A stretch of DNA of 22,859 nt from a virus. Below are positions 9,279 to 17,003 of this stretch, piece after piece (position 1 is the first letter of the stretch; every line of letters begins with the position of its first letter). The stretch covers positions 1 to 22,859 of the IMG/VR virus record IMGVR_UViG_3300037507_000968, one strand, 5' to 3'. The position numbers were made by a program, and so were the translations under genes. The notes under the pieces were generated by a model. That model was not told where the DNA came from, searched no databases, and worked only from the letters and a program-made list of their open reading frames with translations.

Positions 9279-10804
9279 TAGGCTCCCATCCAACTGCTTG
9301 TCACACCCGACCCGCGCTCGGTGACGATGCGTCTTGGCTTCTCTCGCGCCTCACGGCTTGCGAGCGGGTAGGCGAAGGTGACGGCGAGTGCGTCGGCGGC
9401 GTCTGGTGACGCTTGCCCGCGTGCCTTCATCTCCTTCTTCCCTTCCAAGAACAGCGTACCTGACGAGTTAGGCTTGACGTGTGGCCCACAGAGGTCAGAC
9501 TTGAGGAGCCGATCGCTTGGGATGCTCGCCGAGCGTAGCCATTCCCGCATGTCGCCCCACATCTCTGCCCGCTTGTTGCCCCACATCACCGGGTTCTTCG
9601 CCTTCCAGCCAAAGTTTACCCCACGCACCTTATACCGCTGCTCTTTAAGGCGGTCAAGTATGCCGTAGCCTAGTCCACCCTCGTCGATGACGGTGAGCGC
9701 CGGATTGAACTCCTCGATCGCGTCGATGACGCGTCCCACCGTTGTCATCGTATCGTCGCCCCGGTAGCGTCGGATAGCGATCACGTCGCGTCCTTGCCTT
9801 ACGACGATGACTGTCGAGTCTGCTCCACTTCGCGCTGGATCGACTCCGACAACGCGTGGCGCGCTCTCGTCCTTGTACCGAGGCCTTGCCATAGCCTCCT
9901 CCACAATTCGCGGAGCAATAAACTGGTCGTCTCCGTCTGAAGGAAACTCCCCGTAGACCTCAACCTTTGCCTGGCTACTATCTGCTCCATACTCAGCGAT
10001 GATTTGCTCGTAGACGGCTTTGTCGGTGTCTTCGACTTGCCGCGCGTCGATGCTTTGCGTCGTCCAGAACTCTCTTTTGGCGTTGAAGCACTCATAGAAA
10101 TACCCCTCGTTGCGTCGCGGGTTGCTGAAGGCCATCCAGAAGCGATGCGGTGTGTTCTCCGTAAAGAAGCCCGCCGTGACGGACCAGATGCTGTCTGGGA
10201 TACCACTGGCCTCATCGAATATGACCATCACACCGTCGTGGTTGTGCACGCCCGCGTACGCGTCGGGGTTCTCCTCCGACCACAGCCGGCCTTCGACCGA
10301 CCAGTACCGCGTGCCTTTCTTAAGGTCTCGCTCGACGATCTCCGCGAGCCACTTGGCCGGCATCACGCGTGTGGCGGACACCTCAAACCAATGCGAGTTG
10401 ATCAGCAGCGCCAGCCACTTAGTCACCTCGGCCCATGTGACCGAGCGTAGCTGCGCCTCGCTGTTAGCCGACACGATGGTCGTCGAGCCGATGCGCGTCG
10501 AGAGCATCCACAGGATGAGCCAACTGACGAGGGCTGACTTACCAATGCCGCGCCCCGAGGCGGTGGCCATGCGCAAGACCTCATAACTGGTCGCCGTTTT
10601 GTTCTTGGCGATGTGCGCGGCGATGTCCCGCAGCACCTTGCGCTGCCACCGCCTCGGGCCGTCAAAGTGCTCAAGCGGCGTGCCCTTTTGCTTCCAAGGG
10701 AAGGCGAACAGCACGAACGCCTCGGGGTCGTCCTTGACAGACGGCGCCCAGAGCCGGGACATGATCTGCTGCTCGTCGTCGGCGCTATAGATCGGCGTTT
10801 GCAT
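9278..10804 (-). CDS. terL: Terminase large subunit (packaging ATPase-nuclease)
   Basis: The 508-residue motor pumps DNA into the procapsid and cuts the concatemer. The ATPase domain has Walker A SGRGIGKS at 83-90 and Walker B VMVIFDEA at 192-199, with catalytic Glu198. The RNase H-like nuclease domain shows VVGVDPARSGAD with Asp322, TVIDEGGLG with Asp374, and SPDAADALAVTF with Asp468 and Asp471. Length is normal for the family. The ATG lies inside the end of the small terminase gene (20-base overlap). The nearest good Shine-Dalgarno (GGAG) is about 13 bases away, so coupling to the small subunit is likely. Confidence 0.95.
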   Translation of the reverse strand: MQTPIYSADDEQQIMSRLWAPSVKDDPEAFVLFAFPWKQKGTPLEHFDGPRRWQRKVLRDIAAHIAKNKTATSYEVLRMATASGRGIGKSALVSWLILWMLSTRIGSTTIVSANSEAQLRSVTWAEVTKWLALLINSHWFEVSATRVMPAKWLAEIVERDLKKGTRYWSVEGRLWSEENPDAYAGVHNHDGVMVIFDEASGIPDSIWSVTAGFFTENTPHRFWMAFSNPRRNEGYFYECFNAKREFWTTQSIDARQVEDTDKAVYEQIIAEYGADSSQAKVEVYGEFPSDGDDQFIAPRIVEEAMARPRYKDESAPRVVGVDPARSGADSTVIVVRQGRDVIAIRRYRGDDTMTTVGRVIDAIEEFNPALTVIDEGGLGYGILDRLKEQRYKVRGVNFGWKAKNPVMWGNKRAEMWGDMREWLRSASIPSDRLLKSDLCGPHVKPNSSGTLFLEGKKEMKARGQASPDAADALAVTFAYPLASREAREKPRRIVTERGSGVTSSWMGA

Positions 10805-11264
10805 ATTCGGAGTGCTGCTCCAGGTTTACAAGCCTTGGCGATGCGTCTTGAATCAGTGCAGCCGGTGCTGGCGACAATATTCGGCCATTAATGACGCGAG
10901 ACTCCGCCTCTTGCAGCGCCGCGATGACGCTGATCTGCTGCGTGACATCCACTTGGACCTGCTGCTTCGCCACCCAGCCATGCACGTGCTGAAGGATAGC
11001 GAGAGCCGCCTTGCTATCGCCATTTCTAGCCGCCTCGCGCAGCTGAACGGCGGCTTCAACCTCCCCATCGGCGCGGCCTTTGGCTTCGGCCATCTCGGCC
11101 ATGGGGTCCATTTGGCATAAACGACGGTATTCCGTAGGCAGCATCCCCGCCGCCAAGGCGAGCCTATCACCTTTCAGCCCGAGCGCCGCCGCGTCATAAA
11201 TTGCTTGAAGCCGCGATTCGGTCGCCTTGATCTCGCGGGGCTCAAACGGGAGCGATTTGAACAT
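10785..11264 (-). CDS. terS: Probable terminase small subunit
   Basis: The 159-residue protein would recognise the packaging site and load the large subunit. It has an N-terminal helical region with LGLKGDRLALAAGMLPTEYRRL (about residues 29-50), which looks like a helix-turn-helix, then AEAKGRADGEVEAAVQLREAARNGDSKAALAILQHVHGW, a helical oligomerisation-like core seen in phage small terminases. The C-terminus is probably flexible and interacts with the large subunit. It is the first gene of the leftward operon and overlaps terL. AAGG lies about 11 bases before the ATG. The assignment combines sequence pattern and position. Confidence 0.8.
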   Translation of the reverse strand: MFKSLPFEPREIKATESRLQAIYDAAALGLKGDRLALAAGMLPTEYRRLCQMDPMAEMAEAKGRADGEVEAAVQLREAARNGDSKAALAILQHVHGWVAKQQVQVDVTQQISVIAALQEAESRVINGRILSPAPAALIQDASPRLVNLEQHSEYANADL

Positions 11265-11302
11265 GTCGCAACACTACCTTTCGTGTAAGGCAATAGCAAG
11301 CG

Positions 11303-11455
11303 ATGTGCAGGATTGTCCTGCCGGGAGGCCGCGATCCACAACAACCGTGTGACCTGTGTGCCGGGGCGGAGTGCCTTAGATGGTGGGCTATAGCCCTTCA
11401 GCTACCTCCCGGTCGCTACGTGCGCATCACGTCAGACATCGCAAGTAAAGGATAA
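11303..11455 (+). CDS. Possible small Cys-rich protein (50 aa), uncertain
   Basis: An open frame reads MCRIVLPGGRDPQQPCDLCAGAECLRWWAIALQLPP and continues GRYVRITSDIASKG. It contains CDLCAGAEC, a CxxC-type arrangement that could bind zinc, and a WW pair, which looks less random than most shadow frames. An AAGG about 11 bases upstream is a poor Shine-Dalgarno. It would be transcribed rightward, away from the terminases, with no promoter seen. No family is recognised. Treat as tentative. Confidence 0.28.
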   Translation: MCRIVLPGGRDPQQPCDLCAGAECLRWWAIALQLPPGRYVRITSDIASKG

Positions 11456-11476
11456 CGGCAAAACCTTTATTAGCAA
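11449..11476 (-). promoter_or_regulatory. Weak candidate promoter for the leftward virion operon
   Basis: Reading leftward, TTGCTA is followed 16 bases later by TATCCT. This would start transcription about 180 bases before the small terminase gene. The match to sigma70 consensus is only partial. It is listed because the virion operon must start in this region and no better leftward candidate was found. The -10 lies within one copy of the AGTAAAGGAT direct repeat. Confidence 0.22.
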
Positions 11477-11535
11477 GAGGCGTTAGTAAAGGATGCGGGC
11501 TGTAAGGTAAGGGCTTGCAGACTTTTTTTAAAAAA

Positions 11536-11554
11536 TTACAAAAAATTTTTGTAA
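11536..11554. repeat. AT-only-core perfect palindrome in AT-rich block
   Basis: TTACAAAAAATTTTTGTAA is a 9-bp perfect inverted repeat around one central base. It is directly preceded by an A/T tract (TTTTTTTAAAAAA at 11523-11535). Together they make a 30-bp, nearly pure AT segment in an otherwise GC-rich genome, placed beside the 9-bp repeat array. It could be a DNA-unwinding element or a protein-binding dyad; it has no long stable stem as RNA. Confidence 0.6.
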
Positions 11555-11710
11555 GGCCTCCGATACAGGTACAGGCCATCGCGCGGGTCGGCCCACCCCA
11601 TCAGTTGCAAATGATTCCCGTTTGCATCCAGTCGCGGCGTTGTGGGCAATCGGCCATGCCCCACGATGCCCGCAAGCTGTCGGCCAGGACGCATGCGCGC
11701 CGCGTGGTTC

Positions 11711-11757
11711 TGTGGGCAATGTGGGCAATCGAAAACAAATTGCCCACATTGCCCACA
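11711..11757. repeat. Perfect 19-bp inverted repeat built from the 9-bp motif
   Basis: Two forward motif copies (arm 11711-11729) face two reverse copies (arm 11739-11757) across a 9-base A-rich loop, CGAAAACAA. The arms pair perfectly over 19 bp. As DNA it could extrude a cruciform; as RNA it would be a very strong hairpin. No T-run follows on either strand, so it is not a standard intrinsic terminator. It may be the central binding site of the array. Confidence 0.85.
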
Positions 11758-11852
11758 GGCATGCGGGCGTGGGCATTTGTGGGCAATGTGGGCAATGTGG
11801 TCATGGAAAAAAAATTGATCCAGCGTCTACAAATGCGCGTCACATATTCACA

Positions 11853-11872
11853 TACTGTACGCCTATACAGTA
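11853..11872. promoter_or_regulatory. LexA/SOS-box-like operator
   Basis: TACTGTACGCCTATACAGTA is a 20-base dyad with 7-bp perfect arms. It has the CTGT-N8-ACAG spacing of the enterobacterial-type LexA box and matches TACTGTATATATATACAGTA at 16 of 20 positions by my count. A perfect -10 hexamer TATAAT follows at 11875-11880, and a third half-site TACTGT lies at 11886-11891. No good -35 accompanies that -10. A phage repressor operator of similar shape is the alternative. Confidence 0.6.
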
Positions 11873-12062
11873 CATATAATTTTTATACTGTTAAATAAAA
11901 AGCATTACCCACATTACCCACAACGCATGTTTACGCCTATTTTTCTAGTCACTTGCGCGTGGGCAATTTGTCCGCGTTTCATTACCCACACCATTACCCA
12001 CATTGCCCACACCTTGCCGCTGTCCGCACAGTGGCCGCATTTTACTATTTGTAAGAAATTGT

Positions 12063-12091
12063 TTGACAACGTGGCGCGAAGCTGTTTTAAT
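12063..12091 (+). promoter_or_regulatory. Strong sigma70-like promoter for the rightward small-gene block
   Basis: A consensus -35 TTGACA is followed after exactly 17 bases by TTTAAT, five of six matches to the -10 consensus. The start would be near 12098, about 27 bases before the first ATG of the block. This is the best-formed promoter seen in the rightward direction here. It lies just beyond the last repeat of the 9-bp array, so proteins bound to the array could influence it. Confidence 0.65.
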
Positions 12092-12124
12092 TGCTCCATC
12101 GACAACGTACCTGGAGCACTCACT

Positions 12125-12274
12125 ATGACTCGCTACTCCCATGCCCTCGCCGCTATCGCTCTCCCCTGCCTACTCGCCGTGCCGTTCGTTGCCGTCGAGC
12201 TCCACATGCAAGTGTGGGCCGTCGGCGCAAGTGCGGCGCTCTGCGCTGTCATCTTTCGCCTTGCAAACGATTGA
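12125..12274 (+). CDS. Small membrane protein (49 aa)
   Basis: The protein reads MTRYSHALAAIALPCLLAVP, then FVAVELHMQVWAVGASAALC and AVIFRLAND. Two hydrophobic stretches (about residues 6-25 and 29-45) suggest a two-span inner-membrane protein, or a signal-anchor plus helix. GGAG lies 8 bases before the ATG and the strong promoter is just upstream. The frame stays open further upstream through the repeats but without a ribosome-binding site. No family is recognised. As the first gene of an early-looking operon it could be a host-interaction protein, which is inference. Confidence 0.6.
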   Translation: MTRYSHALAAIALPCLLAVPFVAVELHMQVWAVGASAALCAVIFRLAND

Positions 12275-12326
12275 CTGTCTACCGTAAACTAAAATCGTAC
12301 AATCAACTAAACTGGAGTCCACAACC

Positions 12327-12734
12327 ATGACAACTGCAACCACACTTGACCTTGCCGCCGACATCATCGACGTCCGCGACATCATCGCTCGCGTTGAAGA
12401 CTTGGAAAGCGTGATCGACACCGCACCCGAAGACAACATATGGACGCTGGAGGAGCAAGCTGAAGCCAACCGCGAACGGATCGCGCTAGAGGCCATCCTC
12501 GACGAACTCAAGGGCTATGGTGGCGATGAACAATGGCGCGGCGATTGGTACCCCGTGACGTTGATCGACGACGCTTATTTCGTGGACTACGTGCAAGATA
12601 TGCTTGCCGATTGCGGCGTGGTGCCGCGCGACCTACCGCACTATATCGAAATAGACTGGCGCGCCACGGCGCGCAACGTCCAGACGGATTATTCATCCGT
12701 TGAAATCGACGGCCGCACGTACTGGTACCGCTAA
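12327..12734 (+). CDS. Very acidic hypothetical protein (135 aa)
   Basis: The protein starts MTTATTLDLAADIIDVRD with GGAG 9 bases upstream. Residues 1-62 are helical and Glu/Asp-rich. After KGYGGDEQWRGDWYPVTLI comes a compact C-terminal module: YFVDYVQDMLADCGVVP, YIEIDW, DYSSVEIDGRTYWYR. I count 31 acidic against 11 Lys/Arg residues, roughly -20 net charge. Proteins with this C-terminal pattern occur in phages and plasmids as hypotheticals. The charge would suit a DNA mimic such as an anti-restriction protein, but I see no defining ArdA or Ocr motif, so function is left open. Confidence 0.8.
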   Translation: MTTATTLDLAADIIDVRDIIARVEDLESVIDTAPEDNIWTLEEQAEANRERIALEAILDELKGYGGDEQWRGDWYPVTLIDDAYFVDYVQDMLADCGVVPRDLPHYIEIDWRATARNVQTDYSSVEIDGRTYWYR

Positions 12735-12735
12735 C

Positions 12736-12963
12736 ATGGACAGCCAACGATACGTAGTCCTAACCCTGTGCGGCCACCATTACGAAAACGTATGGGAGCT
12801 CGACGGCGAGCCGGAAGTTTTCGAAAGCGCCGGCGAGGCTGAGGCCGCATTGGCCGAACACTTGCGCGAGTGCCAGTGGGCCGTAGACGCCGGGCACCTT
12901 GACACCATGCCAACGCGCGATCAGTTCCACGTCGCGCCGTACGTGGGCGAGGTGGCCGCATGA
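12736..12963 (+). CDS. Hypothetical protein (75 aa)
   Basis: The protein reads MDSQRYVVLTLCGHHYENVWELDGEPEVF, then SAGEAEAALAEHLRECQWAV and AGHLDTMPTRDQFHV. The pattern of a short beta strand (YVVLTLCG), an acidic helix and a final strand suggests a small alpha/beta fold. It has two Cys and several His (CGHH), a possible metal site. The ATG lies one base after the previous stop (TAAC-ATG) with no clear Shine-Dalgarno, so coupled translation is likely. It overlaps the next gene as ATGA. No family is recognised. Confidence 0.72.
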   Translation: MDSQRYVVLTLCGHHYENVWELDGEPEVFESAGEAEAALAEHLRECQWAVDAGHLDTMPTRDQFHVAPYVGEVAA

Positions 12964-13160
12964 GTAGCTACCGCGACGCTATCGAGCGTTACATGGATGA
13001 AGGTCTACGCCGCCACGCCGCTGAAATTGAAGCGGCGTTGGATGACATCGGCCAACAACCAAAGCGCCGGCGGGGGTGGATAGACCCCCGCGACCCCGCC
13101 TACCCTTTTGACGATGACGACACGACAACTAACCAACCAACTGGAGACAATAGACTATGA
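12960..13160 (+). CDS. Hypothetical protein (66 aa)
   Basis: The protein begins MSSYRDAIERYMDEGLRRHAAEIEAALDDIG, a likely amphipathic helix pair. It then has a basic turn KRRRGWIDPRDPAYPF and an acidic, Thr/Asn-rich, probably disordered tail. GAGG lies about 7 bases before the ATG, and both ends overlap neighbours as ATGA, which supports the frame. No family or function is recognised; the split basic and acidic character suggests a protein- or nucleic-acid-binding adaptor at most. Confidence 0.68.
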   Translation: MSSYRDAIERYMDEGLRRHAAEIEAALDDIGQQPKRRRGWIDPRDPAYPFDDDDTTTNQPTGDNRL

Positions 13161-13513
13161 AAACTGCAATCATCACGGCCGTGCTGGCCGCTACACTCAC
13201 CACGGCCGCACATGCGGACACGTTCGCCACGGCGGCCGTTAAAGGTGAGCCCAAAGGCAAGACGATCCTCACGACCGACGCGTGCACGCTCGCGCTCGAC
13301 CCTGTGGTGCTAGGCACCACAGCCGGCAACCTTACCGGCATGCGCCGCGCGTTCTACTACACAGACGCCGGCGCGACGGAGGAGGGCTGCTGGAGGCACG
13401 ACGCGGGCACGGTACTGCTAGCGTGGCCAGCGTCTAAGCTGCTGCGCCGTTGGCCCATCGCTAACTTCAAGCTCGCTGAGCGCAAGGACAACGCGTGGGA
13501 GGTGCTGCGATGA
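13157..13513 (+). CDS. Secreted/periplasmic hypothetical protein (118 aa)
   Basis: A clear signal peptide is visible: MKTAIITAVLAATLTTAAHA, with AHA before a likely cleavage after residue 20. The mature part, about 98 residues, has two Cys (43 and 78) that could form one disulfide once exported. It contains the segments GKTILTTDACTLALDP and MRRAFYYTDAGATEEGCWRHDAGTVLLAW, a beta-rich pattern. GGAG lies 10 bases before the ATG and the start overlaps the previous stop as ATGA. A periplasmic phage protein in an accessory operon could act in superinfection exclusion or envelope modification; this is inference. Confidence 0.75.
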   Translation: MKTAIITAVLAATLTTAAHADTFATAAVKGEPKGKTILTTDACTLALDPVVLGTTAGNLTGMRRAFYYTDAGATEEGCWRHDAGTVLLAWPASKLLRRWPIANFKLAERKDNAWEVLR

Positions 13514-13731
13514 GCGGCAAGCGTTGGGTCATTCAATATACCATCGGCGGCCCTGAGTACGAGGGCCGCTACCTAACACTCGACCGTGACGCTGAGGGCG
13601 CCTATACCGGCACGTCACGGCCGGTTGAGCGTGTTGAGGACGCGCTACGCATGACGCAGAGTCAAGCTGACGCGATCGTAGCGCTGGCCTTGGGCTGCAA
13701 GGCGATCGAGCTACCCGAGGGCGTAGCGTGA
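13510..13731 (+). CDS. Hypothetical protein (73 aa)
   Basis: The protein reads MSGKRWVIQYTIGGPEYEGRYLTLDRDAEG, then TGTSRPVERVEDALRMTQSQADAIVALAL. It looks like a short beta-sheet followed by a helix. The start inside the longer frame is chosen because a strong GGAGGT lies about 7 bases upstream and the ATG overlaps the previous stop as ATGA. The protein ends through a GTGA overlap into the next gene. No family is recognised. Confidence 0.7.
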   Translation: MSGKRWVIQYTIGGPEYEGRYLTLDRDAEGAYTGTSRPVERVEDALRMTQSQADAIVALALGCKAIELPEGVA

Positions 13732-13859
13732 GCCGTTGGTTCGCGTGGCTGCGCACCGTGTTGCGTCGCATGGACGCCGCACGGCGTGACGAGTGGCGCC
13801 GCGTGCCGCCTCCAAACTGGGCGTGCAGTCGGCGGCGTTGGGGTGGTGACTACTGGTGA
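13728..13859 (+). CDS. Small Trp/Arg-rich protein (43 aa)
   Basis: The GTG start overlaps the previous stop as GTGA, with GAGG about 7 bases upstream. The product begins MSRWFAWLRTVLRRMDAARR and ends with a Trp-, Arg- and Pro-rich tail (NWACSRRRWGGDYW). It is strongly basic with seven Trp, unlike neighbours. It fills the gap between two coupled genes exactly, which is the main support. An amphipathic membrane-binding helix is possible (residues 1-20). Function is unknown. Confidence 0.55.
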   Translation: MSRWFAWLRTVLRRMDAARRDEWRRVPPPNWACSRRRWGGDYW

Positions 13860-13870
13860 GGACCATAACT

Positions 13871-14332
13871 ATGGACATACGCATGACGTTCGATGAGTGG
13901 GACGCGTTCCAACGTGACATGGGCCGGCCGGCTGATCCATTTGAGAGTAAGCCGCCTATAGACCCCGAGACTATGTACCGAGCGCCCGAGAGCCGCTTGG
14001 AGCGCACCTGTAGGCTGACCAAAGAGGAGATCGACGCCGTGATGGCTGAGTACAACGCGTGGCCCTATGGGAGCGACAGTACGCACGCCGAGGCTGACAG
14101 TACGCCCGACGCGATCAACCCCGACCATTACAAAGTCGGCGGTATTGAAACGATTGACTACATGAGGGCTAAGAGTACGCCCGAGGAGTTCGAGGGCTAC
14201 TTGCGCCTATCGGCGCTCAAGTACCTTTCACGCGTCGGCCATAAGCACGGCGACCACGACGCCGCACGCGCTGAGGAGTATAGAAAAGCTCTGTGGTTCA
14301 TTGATCGCCTAGTGCGAGAGGTGGAGCGATGA
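13871..14332 (+). CDS. DUF3310-domain protein
   Basis: The 153-residue protein carries a C-terminal DUF3310 domain (about residues 82-150). Its signature is INPDHYKVGGIETIDYM, then TPEEFEGYLRLSALKYLSRVGHKHG and KALWFIDRLVRE. This domain is common in phages and is sometimes annotated as nucleotide-kinase-like, but a biochemical role is not firmly known to me. The N-terminal 80 residues are acidic and variable. GAGGA lies 8 bases before this ATG; a GTG five codons earlier overlaps the previous stop as GTGA and is the alternative start. It overlaps the next gene as ATGA. Confidence 0.82.
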   Translation: MDIRMTFDEWDAFQRDMGRPADPFESKPPIDPETMYRAPESRLERTCRLTKEEIDAVMAEYNAWPYGSDSTHAEADSTPDAINPDHYKVGGIETIDYMRAKSTPEEFEGYLRLSALKYLSRVGHKHGDHDAARAEEYRKALWFIDRLVREVER

Positions 14333-14523
14333 GCGACAACCTAACGCGCGATGACTACGGCCGCGTGGTGAAGCTTTACACGGAAGCAGTATACAAGCTG
14401 CTGCATTACGAGGCGGCGCTACACACCATTGCTAACATGAGCCGCGATCAGTGCGAGGACGCGCACGCGATCGCCAGGCGCGCGCTGCAACGGGTAGACC
14501 GTGGCGCGGACAACACTCACTGA
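14329..14523 (+). CDS. Small helical hypothetical protein (64 aa)
   Basis: The protein reads MSDNLTRDDYGRVVKLYTEAVYKLLHYEAALHTIANM, then CEDAHAIARRALQRV. It is almost entirely helix-forming, like a short helical hairpin. GAGAGG lies before the ATG and the start overlaps the DUF3310 gene as ATGA. No family is recognised with confidence. Confidence 0.68.
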   Translation: MSDNLTRDDYGRVVKLYTEAVYKLLHYEAALHTIANMSRDQCEDAHAIARRALQRVDRGADNTH

Positions 14524-14704
14524 CTGGTGGGTCCGGCGCATGTGGCGCTGGATCGACGTGGCGCGCAAGGACGTGCGCCAAGGCAAGGGGCGGCGCTACA
14601 AGGCGCCGACCGCCTTGCAGCATGTGACCGCTCGATACAATCAACTAAAGGCCAATAAGCGTGACGTACTTACTCTTGACTATCGGCGCCGCCATCCTCG
14701 TTGA
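14501..14704 (+). CDS. Small basic hypothetical protein (67 aa), start uncertain
   Basis: From a GTG start the product reads MARTTLTDWWVRRMWRWIDVARKDVRQGKGRRYKAPTALQ and ends DYRRRHPR. It is Trp- and Arg-rich, as is the 43-residue protein upstream. The frame overlaps the previous gene by 23 bases and the Shine-Dalgarno is weak; an ATG at 14540 is an alternative start. Its 3' end overlaps a tiny frame that may also be translated, and it nearly meets the convergent primase-helicase gene. Function is unknown. Confidence 0.5.
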   Translation: MARTTLTDWWVRRMWRWIDVARKDVRQGKGRRYKAPTALQHVTARYNQLKANKRDVLTLDYRRRHPR

Positions 14705-14723
14705 CTGGCTACTTGACGACTGA
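14661..14723 (+). CDS. Possible 20-residue membrane micropeptide
   Basis: A GTG frame with AAGG nine bases upstream encodes MTYLLLTIGAAILVDWLLDD, a single hydrophobic helix ending in two Asp. It lies in another frame over the end of the preceding gene and overlaps the convergent primase-helicase stop by 15 bases. The clean transmembrane character and the ribosome-binding site make it better than a random frame, but length alone gives no statistical support. Confidence 0.35.
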   Translation: MTYLLLTIGAAILVDWLLDD

Positions 14724-17003
14724 CAATGCAGGCGCCTTGTCCTCGGCCATGTGCCGGAGCTCCGACTTCGTGAGGCTCGCAAACTGCGGATGGCAGAACA
14801 CATGCTTACGTGTCGGCCACTCGCGTGAGTGCAAGCGTCCACAATCGACCCACTCAGCCTCGCGTATCGCGTGCATGAGCGCCGGCGGTACGACCTTAAC
14901 GCCCGTGGGCGCAAGGCCTTGCAGCCGATCGCAGATGGCATAGAACGGTGAGGCGATCACGCCCTTGGCAAAGTCACCCTGCCGCGTGCGGATCATTTCG
15001 ACTAGGAACGACTCGGCCGTACTCATGGCCGACTCGATCATAATCATTTTAGCCTCAGTCATCGGCGGCGCAGCGCCGGGGTTGAACGCCGACACGTCAC
15101 GGGCATCAAGCCACGCGGCGACCGACTCAAACCCGCCGGACTTGTACCACGCCCAGATGTGCTCGGCGTCCTCGGGGCGCATGCGCTCGGCCTCAGACCA
15201 CACGACGAACCAGCGGCGATCGTCTCGCGGTAGGCTGATGGCCGCGCGCTCGTTTGAGAACGACAGTACGAACACACGATTAAGCGCGTCGTACGGGTGC
15301 ATGCCCTTACGGTTGACCGACAGTAGTTCAGGCGGCGCGGCGATCACGGGCTTCAAACTATTCTCAAGCGCGCGACGGTCTTTGGCCTCGGCCTGTCTGA
15401 GCTCGTTGATCACGATCACTTCAGACTCCAGCGCGTAGCCCCACTGCGAATTGAGTTCCTCGTTCTTGACGATCGCCACGTTAACGTGCGTATTGCCACC
15501 GATCGACCACAGGAACGGCGCCCAAAGCGTGTCCTTGCCGCTACCAGGACGACCGGCGTGCAGGACGGCGTGGTTGATCTTCTTCTCGGGGTGCTGGCGC
15601 TTGTAGGCCATCACGTTAAGCACATGCTCGCGCTCGATAGGGTCTGGGATCATGCGCTCGGCGTGCTGTAGCCAGATGGATACGTCGCCCTCGGCGGCGG
15701 TCGGGCGCGCGTCGCGCCAGCGGTTGCCGTAGACAAGGCCGTTGCGTGAGACAAGGATCGACTCGCCGGCGGCGAACGTGACGCCGACCAACGAGTGAGC
15801 GCCCATCGCCTGACGGTTCTCGTCAAAGCAGATGGAGGCTTCAATGTTGCGGTTTGAGCGGATGCTGCGGCATGGGATGTGACGGAACAACGCGTTAAAC
15901 GTCTGCCGGCTGATCTCGCGCCGATCAATCATGTCGAAGTAACTGTCATCGTCTTGGATGTAAGCAAAGCGTTCGTACCATTGCGATCGCTCGACGCGCC
16001 CGAGCTCGCGGCGCTCGACCTCCTCGATCACCTTGGCGGCTTCGTCTGGGAACTCAGTTGTGGGCGTAATTTTACTCAACGCGGCCTCCATCTTTTTTGC
16101 GAGCAGGTCATCGCGCAGACCATAGCCCGTCTTGGGGCCGCCCTCGGCCTCGACCCATCGCAAAAATTTCTCGCTATTCCAGTCACCACAGTGACCGTGG
16201 AAGCAGGTGTAGCTACGGGATACGGGATTGTAACGCCCGCCGGGGTCGCCCGTCGTGTGCGCCGCATGGTTAGGACACACTACGCCGTACCAGCCCTCGC
16301 CGTTGGCCTTATCGAGCAGCAGCCCGCGCTCGCGGACCCACTCTAGCACCGTGTCAAGGCCATCGTCCTCAAGGTATACGCCGCGTATATACGCCGTATC
16401 AACAGGACCGGGCGTGACGCCCAATGCTTGACAAATATGGGCCAGTGTGTACTCGCGCTCGGGGTGGAACTCGGTCAGGATGGAGGCGAAGTTGTGGCGC
16501 CCTTCCTTTAGGTTGATGCTGCCCTCGATGCGGAAGTTGCGCACCGGGTTGATCGCGCCGGGGTCGGTGTAACCGGCTTCAGCGATCGCTTTGATCGCCG
16601 CGCTGAACTCGCCCTTGGTCGGCTGGTCATCGAGGCCGAACGTGTAGCCCCACTGATAGTTGCCGGGGCTCGTCTCCATCTTCCACGTCGGCTCCAACGG
16701 CGGCACCTTGGACTTGGTGCCGACATCATCGAGCACCATGAACGCAACGCGCTCGCAGTTGGCCGCAGAGGCCGAGAGGCCATCGGCCATGCGATCGACG
16801 ATGAAGCAACCGGTGTTGGCGTACCACGCCCCTTGCGGGCGGCGCTGGTAACGGTCAAACAAGGCCGGCGGCCAGGTGTACTTCAGCGTGCCGTCGTTGT
16901 GTGCAAGCTGCTCGCCGTTACGCATGAGCGGCTTCTGACGGACGAACAGGATAACTTCCCCTTCTGGGGCGATGCTGTTAAGATAATCGGCGAATCTCAT
17001 CAT
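14709..17003 (-). CDS. Primase-helicase: AEP-type primase, zinc finger and SF3-like helicase
   Basis: The 764-residue protein probably primes and unwinds at the replication fork. The N-terminal primase looks RepB/archaeo-eukaryotic type: MVLDDVGTK (89-97) provides the paired Asp, and VRNFRIEGSINLK (154-166) resembles the conserved Arg/Asn/Lys motif. A zinc-finger-like region follows (Cys243, His246, Cys267, His269/271, Cys272). The helicase has Walker A GRPGSGKD (484-491) and Walker B-like EVIVINE (528-534), resembling the virulence-associated/DUF5906 phage helicases. GGAG lies about 8 bases before the first ATG. It is last in the leftward replication operon, behind the HNH gene. The fused form with family A polymerase would supply most fork functions. 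Confidence 0.85.
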   Translation of the reverse strand: MMRFADYLNSIAPEGEVILFVRQKPLMRNGEQLAHNDGTLKYTWPPALFDRYQRRPQGAWYANTGCFIVDRMADGLSASAANCERVAFMVLDDVGTKSKVPPLEPTWKMETSPGNYQWGYTFGLDDQPTKGEFSAAIKAIAEAGYTDPGAINPVRNFRIEGSINLKEGRHNFASILTEFHPEREYTLAHICQALGVTPGPVDTAYIRGVYLEDDGLDTVLEWVRERGLLLDKANGEGWYGVVCPNHAAHTTGDPGGRYNPVSRSYTCFHGHCGDWNSEKFLRWVEAEGGPKTGYGLRDDLLAKKMEAALSKITPTTEFPDEAAKVIEEVERRELGRVERSQWYERFAYIQDDDSYFDMIDRREISRQTFNALFRHIPCRSIRSNRNIEASICFDENRQAMGAHSLVGVTFAAGESILVSRNGLVYGNRWRDARPTAAEGDVSIWLQHAERMIPDPIEREHVLNVMAYKRQHPEKKINHAVLHAGRPGSGKDTLWAPFLWSIGGNTHVNVAIVKNEELNSQWGYALESEVIVINELRQAEAKDRRALENSLKPVIAAPPELLSVNRKGMHPYDALNRVFVLSFSNERAAISLPRDDRRWFVVWSEAERMRPEDAEHIWAWYKSGGFESVAAWLDARDVSAFNPGAAPPMTEAKMIMIESAMSTAESFLVEMIRTRQGDFAKGVIASPFYAICDRLQGLAPTGVKVVPPALMHAIREAEWVDCGRLHSREWPTRKHVFCHPQFASLTKSELRHMAEDKAPALSVVK

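Follow-up and report, generated by a model that had tools for sequence, protein, structure and literature searches.

A two-strand array of 9-bp repeats in a phage family is a probable iteron-type replication origin recognized by the phage primase-helicase

Genes and repeat array of the window

The DNA considered here (the window) is the whole of IMG/VR record IMGVR_UViG_3300037507_000968, a stretch of 22,859 bases that is classed as linear, a class that often denotes a fragment. Leftward from about 11.3 kb the window encodes terS (the small terminase subunit), terL, the portal, and other structural genes; the names of terS and of most of the structural genes rest on position and on relatives, and the terS product has no Pfam or PHROG match. 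Rightward from about 12.1 kb lies a block of small ORFs, one of which (118 aa, 13157-13513) has a start that looks signal-peptide-like by eye. Leftward from 22 kb are genes for a DUF2800 protein, a PHROG 9528 protein, a family-A DNA polymerase, and a 764-aa primase-helicase.

The initial annotation had described about a dozen units of a 9-bp motif, in both orientations, between the divergent operons, and 13 exact GTGGGYAAT units (6 on the plus strand and 7 on the minus strand) are indeed present in 11642-12010, to the right of the leftward terminase genes (terS start at 11264) and to the left of the rightward small ORFs. A scan of the whole 22.9-kb record found no exact unit outside this interval. 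In 200 second-order Markov simulations the mean number of exact units was 0.21 and the largest 3; when one mismatch was allowed, the window had 20 matches as compared to a mean of 7.86 and a largest value of 18 in 100 shuffles. A perfect inverted repeat with a 9-base loop had also been described, and it is there, although its arms measure 20 bp rather than 19; each arm is a tandem pair of units. The AT-rich palindrome that had been placed to the left of the array was found as well. A conserved RNA structure was considered and set aside: there was no Rfam match at the gathering threshold in 11200-12500, and the hairpin is missing in some relatives. The features of the window that are discussed below are as follows.

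10785 to 11264, minus strand: small terminase subunit gene (terS), assigned by position and synteny, beside TerL in the window and in relatives
11520 to 11604, no strand: conserved element between terS and the array, an AT-rich tract (containing the palindrome on the next line) and then GGCCTCC...GGCCCACCCC
11536 to 11554: AT-rich palindrome TTACAAAAAATTTTTGTAA
11642 to 11796, no strand: left iteron block, drawn from unit positions and from the layout common to 178 distinct arrays
11642, 11712, 11721, 11779, 11788, and 11959, plus strand: exact GTGGGCAAT/GTGGGTAAT units
11739, 11748, 11904, 11913, 11981, 11993, and 12002, minus strand: exact GTGGGCAAT/GTGGGTAAT units
11769, plus strand: variant unit GTGGGCATT
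11710 to 11758, no strand: perfect inverted repeat, with arms at 11710-11729 and 11739-11758
11797 to 11903, no strand: AT-rich spacer between the inward-facing blocks, a candidate DNA-unwinding element
11855 to 11870, no strand: CTGT-N8-ACAG dyad CTGTACGCCTATACAG in the AT-rich spacer, followed by TATAAT at 11875-11880
11904 to 12010, no strand: right iteron block, with units at 11904, 11913, 11981, 11993, and 12002 on the minus strand and at 11959 on the plus strand
14709 to 17003, minus strand: 764-aa primase-helicase with a DUF5906 helicase part, the proposed initiator (Pfam PF19263, 3.7e-9; PHROG 1156 DNA primase, 3.2e-25)
14709 to 15086, minus strand: C-terminal winged-helix domain of the primase-helicase (residues 640-764), predicted from AlphaFold2 models and weak winged-helix matches
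14811 to 14831, minus strand: predicted wing (codons 725-731), in which H725, R727, and P730 covary with unit positions 3, 1, and 5, respectively

Arrays in related phages

A DNA search with positions 11300-12300 returned no match in phage records. A scan of viral contigs (IMG/VR) for the double unit yielded 101 stretches, of which 76 had a TerS match, 75 had a unit at most 1 kb from TerS, and 48 had a primase match; in these 48 stretches the median distance from the primase homolog to the nearest unit was 2.9 kb. Nine of the 101 stretches had no match to any window protein. Scans with primase homologs enlarged the set to 434 oriented loci, which include several stretches of the same contigs. 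The array place was defined as the region to the right of terS, or to the left of the primase where terS was missing, and at this place one 9-mer was repeated six or more times, with one mismatch allowed, in 314 of the 434 loci; these 314 loci represent 243 distinct array regions. The caller found fewer than six copies in the other 120 loci, in some of them because the array lies outside the fragment or is of another form.

Counted by distinct regions, the 9-mers were GTGGGCAAT (61), GTGGACAAT (53), GTGGGTCAT (17), TTGGGTCAT (13), GTTGGCTAT (13), AATTGTCAT (12), GTAGGCAAT (10), TGTAGTCAT (6), and others. It should be noted that the first 101 loci were fetched with the window's own double unit, so that the GTGGGCAAT class is over-represented, and that the motif caller was limited to 9-mers of the form nnn[GAT]n[CT][ACT]AT, so that other forms are poorly called. 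Conservation of the 9-mer in relatives had been proposed as a check on the origin reading; the 9-mer itself differs by lineage, whereas the array, its place, and its layout are kept. The nearest record in the phage collection, MW202483 (Manatee Spring), which is annotated as P22-like and is 67%, 71%, and 51% identical to the window in TerS, TerL, and primase, respectively, is an example of a form that the caller handles poorly: it lacks GTGGGYAAT, and the corresponding place holds an array whose units resemble GTTTAYGTAAAC. Phage DSL-LC05, with a TerL that is 69% identical and a primase without a blastp match to that of the window, has its own CAGTGGGTCA repeats at the array place beside terS (L112, 33560-33980), indicating that the array place is not tied to this primase family.

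Some further arrays are recorded here as observations. One array (L161, 4836-5786, reverse complement) holds two unit families, GTTAGTGAG-like and GTGGGTCAT/GTGGACAAT, and is perhaps a switch in progress. Outside the viral contigs, the 19-bp double unit occurred in 50 contigs of the genome_contigs collection, 44 of them with one match only, from diverse bacteria and archaea, and tblastn (E 1e-3) of the window query proteins against stretches fetched from these 50 contigs gave no match. A Bacteroidales contig (L318, 6250-7000) has a two-strand TGTGGGTAAT array with an AT-rich middle; it was rejected as a relative, given that its neighbors are annotated as Omp85, a glycosyltransferase, and HisG, with no primase among the ORFs scanned. 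Long head-to-tail runs of 9-mers were likewise seen in L278, L282, L285, and L309.

The layout was compared among 178 arrays that had at least eight units and were distinct in sequence. Units of the left block were on the plus strand 941 times and on the minus strand 291 times, and those of the right block 157 and 534 times, respectively. The spacer had a median length of 99 bp, and its best 60 bp had a median of 75% AT versus 50% in the surrounding region. Same-strand units were spaced by 9 bp 550 times, and the next commonest spacing occurred 35 times. A particularly close correspondence is that between the window (GTGGGCAAT) and L141 (TTGGGTCAT), which share the order tandem pair, short loop, inverted tandem pair, spacer, and inverted pair, with a lone plus-strand unit about 45 bp beyond the inverted pair in both. 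Different letters in a fixed layout imply that about a dozen dispersed sites have changed together. The 20-bp hairpin is not essential to this layout, since the left blocks of relatives such as L017 and L054 consist entirely of direct repeats.

Conserved elements in the spacer and beside terS

The CTGT-N8-ACAG dyad of the spacer matches the LexA SOS box. Within the window's clade, 27 of 35 arrays contain it, with conserved arms and a variable center, and only 31 such dyads were counted in all 348,823 bases of the window-clade loci. More broadly, the dyad is present in 49 of 178 arrays, among them 31 of 50 GTGGGCAAT arrays versus 1 of 44 GTGGACAAT arrays. That a host repressor acts in the middle of the putative origin is plausible, as an inference from sequence alone.

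The second element, between terS and the array, has the family form GGGGGTAGGGCC...AATTTTTT on the terS strand and is seen with many unit classes. In another set of 178 loci (TerS present, at least seven units, distinct), GGCCC-N0-3-CCCC was found at most 450 bp from terS in 103 loci, as compared to 2 occurrences elsewhere in the loci in 1,991,023 bases. No consensus RNA fold was obtained for this element in 29 sequences. It is possibly a packaging site or a late-operon leader.

Covariation of the unit with the primase-helicase

Every well-filled alignment column of six phage proteins was compared with every unit position, using arrays with at least seven units (270 loci) after near-identical entries (98% identity and the same 9-mer) had been collapsed, which left 146 primases. 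For unit position 1, primase column 817 (R727) reached a normalized MI of 0.46, where the mean over 2,623 columns was 0.040 (sd 0.039). Primase columns 815 (H725) and 820 (P730) ranked first for unit positions 3 and 5, respectively, and a wing column was also first for position 6. This ranking has no control for relatedness, and in it the top columns for positions 2, 4, and 7 lay outside the wing (in TerL, the polymerase, and primase residue 280).

The associations can be read directly from the 146 non-redundant phages. Of the 114 rows with Arg727, 106 have G at unit position 1, while G is absent there from all 31 rows in which residue 727 is Lys, Gly, Ala, Thr, Ser, or His (T, A, or C is found instead); the single Glu727 row has G. 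These nine exceptions in 146 rows were kept in all counts, and several of them look like miscalled frames or 8-bp units (TGTAGTCAT, TGTTGTCAT, ATGGACAAG). G at position 3 accompanies Lys725 in 60 of 64 rows and His725 in 15 of 15, and A at position 5 accompanies Asp730 in 46 of 60. The window fits, having R727, H725, and P730 together with G at unit positions 1, 3, and 5.

Relatedness was controlled with a tree built without the primase C-terminal domain, on which the minimum number of changes per trait was 19-27. In independent tree pairs, R727 and position 1 changed in the same sense in 13.9 and in the opposite sense in 0.2 of 18; the values were 15.3 and 0.1 of 22 for Lys/His725 with position 3, and 14.4 and 0.4 of 19 for Asp730 with position 5. 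Control pairings of a wing residue with the wrong unit position were weaker, yet they were also positive (10.0/0.3 of 18, 11.9/1.0 of 22, and 11.1/0.4 of 19), because the letters of the unit change together. These data therefore identify the protein more securely than they do the individual base contacts.

A scan of closest pairs across the six proteins (2,273-2,646 columns) likewise placed the top column in the wing for positions 1-6. Residue 727 differed in 28 of 33 pairs discordant at position 1 versus 5 of 67 concordant pairs. For position 7, primase column 340 came first in this unmatched scan. When pairs were matched for identity, which was done for primase columns only, the wing led throughout, with a strong lead at positions 1-5 and a weak one at 6 and 7; the values were 16/21 versus 2/51 for R727, 22/26 versus 8/47 for H725, and 28/31 versus 12/51 for P730.

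Predicted structure of the primase-helicase

The window primase-helicase was modeled with 62 relatives in AlphaFold2 (mean pLDDT 84.6, pTM 0.51). Its C-terminal domain is predicted to comprise helices 687-695 and 706-715 and strands 719-724 and 733-737, with the wing (725-732) between the strands, and a winged helix was likewise obtained when the domain was modeled alone. As modeled, the domain thus has what defines a winged helix, namely a helix-turn-helix followed by a beta-hairpin wing. Helix 706-715 has invariant A708, L709, H711, and A712, and the wing is variable. In the primase part, residues 243-272 include the invariant C243, H249, C267, H269, and C272, an arrangement that resembles a zinc site.

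In Foldseek searches the best PDB match was the CTR of NrS-1 polymerase (6k9c, C-terminal region 305-718, 1.7e-16); the SaPI5 primase-helicase (7ola, E 2.4e-7), mpox E5, vaccinia D5, and ASFV PrimPol were also matched, and the RepB-primase-like protein A0A6J7WX72 was a structural match with a TM of 0.93 on the target. The C-terminal domain alone gave weak PDB matches, many of them to winged-helix proteins (best Z 6.2, rmsd 3.7, 92 aligned).

Prediction of units in held-out phages

Further scans provided 120 new loci, of which 42 were usable; excluded were 51 with an array region already in training, 16 without primase or TerS, 7 duplicates, 3 with fewer than seven units, and 1 without a full primase frame. 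The baseline for each locus was the letter of the nearest training phage as judged by the rest of the primase. The rule pairing Arg727, and no other residue, with G at position 1 held in 42 of 42 held-out loci, as compared to 32 of 42 for the nearest neighbor, and in all 10 loci where the baseline disagreed. The rule pairing Asp730, again exclusively, with A at position 5 was right in 40 of 42 (nearest neighbor, 32 of 42) and in 9 of the 10 disagreements. A two-way rule equating Lys or His725 with G at position 3 succeeded in no more than 16 of 42 loci, where the nearest neighbor succeeded in 40 of 42, and was withdrawn, its failure being that Ala725 with Gly or Ser727 also goes with G. The one-way rule, from Lys or His725 to G at position 3, stands; all 12 held-out Lys rows have G, and there were no His rows.

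Two groups of loci mark the reach of this code. With the C-terminal domain left out, the primases of L522, L523, L527, and L531 are 94-98% identical to the L383 primase (98% for L522), but wing and units are both exchanged (TTGGGTCAT versus GTGGACCAT). The cluster around L159 (primases 96-100% identical to that of L159) has the wing segment GRLASREYQTKKH in 25 of 25 loci, while its called units vary among GTTGGCTAT, GTTGGCAGT, GTTGGCAAT, GTGGGTCAT, and GTAGGTCAT, with some arrays weak or hybrid. In the stronger arrays of this cluster, whose wing has Ala725 and Arg727, G is fixed at positions 1, 4, and 5 and the variation lies at 3, 6, and 7. One wing with several units indicates that part of the unit variation is drift within one specificity, that one reader tolerates several units, and that homogenization within an array adds to the variety.

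The initial annotation had left open whether the primase-helicase or a host factor recognizes the array. Covariation and the held-out test favor the primase-helicase over a host factor, and the phage protein is most likely the reader, to the extent that this can be judged from aligned sequences. The N-terminus of the protein had been suggested as the part whose binding should be tried; the covarying residues are instead in the C-terminal winged helix.

The array as a putative origin and competing explanations

In light of these comparisons, the array is probably an iteron-type replication origin recognized by the phage's own primase-helicase. This reading, which had been raised at the outset, is supported by the retention of the array and its layout, by the covariation, and by the held-out prediction, whereas origin activity, like protein binding and the start of replication, is inferred. 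A turning point of GC skew at the array had also been anticipated and was not seen, the extremes of cumulative skew lying elsewhere in ten genomes (nine long contigs of relatives and MW202483). The skew follows a mostly one-way coding strand and, as we read it, is therefore no test of an origin.

The explanation that competes best, which is nonetheless improbable, is that the array is an operator at which the primase-helicase, or a protein sharing its DNA-reading domain, controls divergent promoters for the late operon and the rightward small genes rather than the start of replication. The array does lie between divergent transcription units, a conserved LexA-like dyad is followed by TATAAT, and binding by the primase-helicase would explain the covariation equally well. 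A strict promoter scan of 11200-12500, however, found 0 sigma-70-like sites where 0.9 were expected, and two inward-facing blocks around an AT-rich spacer are a usual form of an origin. A helicase with a fused primase would be unusual as a dedicated repressor. Operator and origin roles can coexist.

Packaging sites are often found in or near terS, and the array is about 380 bp upstream of that gene, which raises the alternative of a pac or cos site read by the adjoining small terminase subunit. However, the best TerS column reached a normalized MI of only 0.13 and no TerS column was among the six best for any unit position in the closest-pair scan. Moreover, L006, L020, L023, L082, and L083 have a different TerL of 419 aa, with 96-100% identity within this group, and lack a TerS homolog, but they keep GTGGGYAAT units together with a homologous primase-helicase and polymerase. 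(The portal of L020 is SU10/P22-like.) The absence of comparable covariation and the persistence of units and primase in phages with a replaced terminase make TerS a very unlikely reader, and the separate, unit-independent element between terS and the array is the better candidate for packaging.

It is equally doubtful that the units are start sites at which the primase part uses a single-stranded template, in the manner of NrS-1 polymerase, a PrimPol that starts at 5'-TTTGGTTA-3' and 5'-GTGG-3' (PMC8718748). The CTR of that enzyme is the best PDB match, and TTTGGTTA and GTGG resemble the units. Against this, the covarying residues are in the C-terminal winged helix and not in the primase part, and both the two-strand layout and the 9-bp phasing point to duplex DNA. 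Primase-part residues 239-304, which had been linked to position 7 in the unmatched scan, were rejected as candidates, as they were not among the leaders with identity-matched pairs.

Recognition by host DnaA has the least to recommend it. The DnaA box consensus is TTATNCACA, or TGTGGATAA on the given strand of the array, and TGTGGGYAA units could be taken for degenerate boxes, particularly as GTGGATAAT is the called unit of two loci, TTATCCACA occurs in the L234 array, TGTGGACAA is a common class, and small DnaA domain IV proteins occur in MW202483 and in 1 of 49 records of relatives; but the window units read TTGCCCACA or TTACCCACA and do not match a DnaA box, classes such as TTGGGTCAT and AATTGTCAT are far from one, and host DnaA is an unlikely reader because the letters of the unit follow residues of the phage primase-helicase. 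No Bac_DnaA_C match was found in the window record (a fragment) or in 48 of the 49 relatives' records (many of them fragments). DnaA domain IV (PF08299) proteins were noted in L110 (31423-31719), L114 (28052-28519), and the record behind L193, and one is so annotated in MW202496.

Comparison with known initiators

A primase-helicase that itself reads short iterons in two orientations has a counterpart in the P4 alpha protein, which recognizes short both-orientation iterons (ori and crr) via its C-terminal part; P4, unlike the present phages, is a satellite, and it has two cis regions.

The array with its proposed reader is best read, by analogy, as working like the origins of SaPI Rep and SCCmec Cch2, although binding, ring loading, and the start of synthesis are all inferred. 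These proteins are described as self-loading initiator helicases whose C-terminal domain binds short origin repeats (PMC7581432). The window protein is of that type in being a D5-like helicase, here the proposed initiator, of a kind that is often primase-fused, as in SaPI5, and the array in having several short repeats beside AT-rich DNA. That a C-terminal domain reads the repeats is likewise satisfied, on covariation and held-out prediction and not on binding. The array is on the downstream side of the primase-helicase gene, but it is 2.7 kb from the 3' end of that gene, beside terS and with small ORFs between (12010 to 14709), and not directly after the gene. Further differences from SaPI Rep and Cch2 are that the present system occurs across a large family of phages, which the annotation of MW202483 would place as P22-like, that its 9-bp units are phased at 9 bp in inward blocks, and that its specificity, which maps to the wing, has switched many times among family members.

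NrS-1 polymerase is similarly a phage primase with a C-terminal helicase ring (PMC7102993; PMC8718748); the NrS-1 genome has two copies of an 8-nt template site, and neither an iteron array nor winged-helix specificity was found in the parts of these two sources that were available. For switching, the nearest precedent is RepA/ori of PLE, in which the DNA-binding domain of the initiator and the origin covary and are swapped as a module, with the origin-directed nuclease Odn of ICP1 thought to select such swaps (PMC8263062). The PLE system involves a RepA_N initiator, iterons of about 30 bp, a satellite, and two specificity groups among five PLEs (PMC8263062), as compared to a primase-helicase wing, 9-bp units, and about 20 or more changes in the present phages. 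Geminivirus iterons are also conserved in place and pattern and diversified in sequence with Rep specificity, in plant ssDNA viruses rather than phages, and in TYLCV iteron sequence identity is reported not to have been essential for replication (PMC12548392).

A literature search found no description of the origin array or of a wing code in these phages, but subscription journals were mostly not covered and absence is unproven. An iteron origin read by a primase-helicase is of a known kind; what looks new is a specificity that is encoded in the wing and repeatedly switched across a large family.

Proposed mechanism and implications

As an inferred mechanism, Arg727 would contact the G at unit position 1 and Lys or His725 the G at position 3, residue 730 would lie near position 5, and the conserved recognition helix (706-715) would hold the less variable end of the unit. 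The winged helix may gather subunits on the inward-facing tandem units, after which rings would load on either side of the AT-rich spacer and open it, and the fused primase, together with the family-A polymerase of the phage, would then begin synthesis. The LexA-box-like dyad in the spacer of the window's clade may allow a host repressor to gate the opening step or a promoter located there.

A broader and more tentative proposal, offered as one possibility, is that the wing and the roughly one dozen dispersed units form a rapidly switching lock-and-key, that switching is driven by origin conflict (from rival phages, from satellites borrowing the replisome, or from nucleases or repressors aimed at the origin), that the unit class amounts to a replication-compatibility type, and that a wing code of few residues makes much of this predictable. 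Some switches separate phages with primases that, the C-terminal domain excluded, share 95-98% identity.

Initiator-origin pairs of the present kind have so far been known one or a few at a time. In this phage family more than 200 distinct arrays are available from nature along with their proposed readers; sequence alone suffices to locate the reading residues, and predictions can be checked on unseen genomes. The family makes testable how the wing of a winged helix recognizes a 9-bp unit, how some dozen scattered sites change in step with their reader, and what makes origins diversify faster than the surrounding primase, terminase, and polymerase genes. It also provides a route to finding origins in unannotated phage contigs and to sorting those phages into likely replication-compatibility groups.
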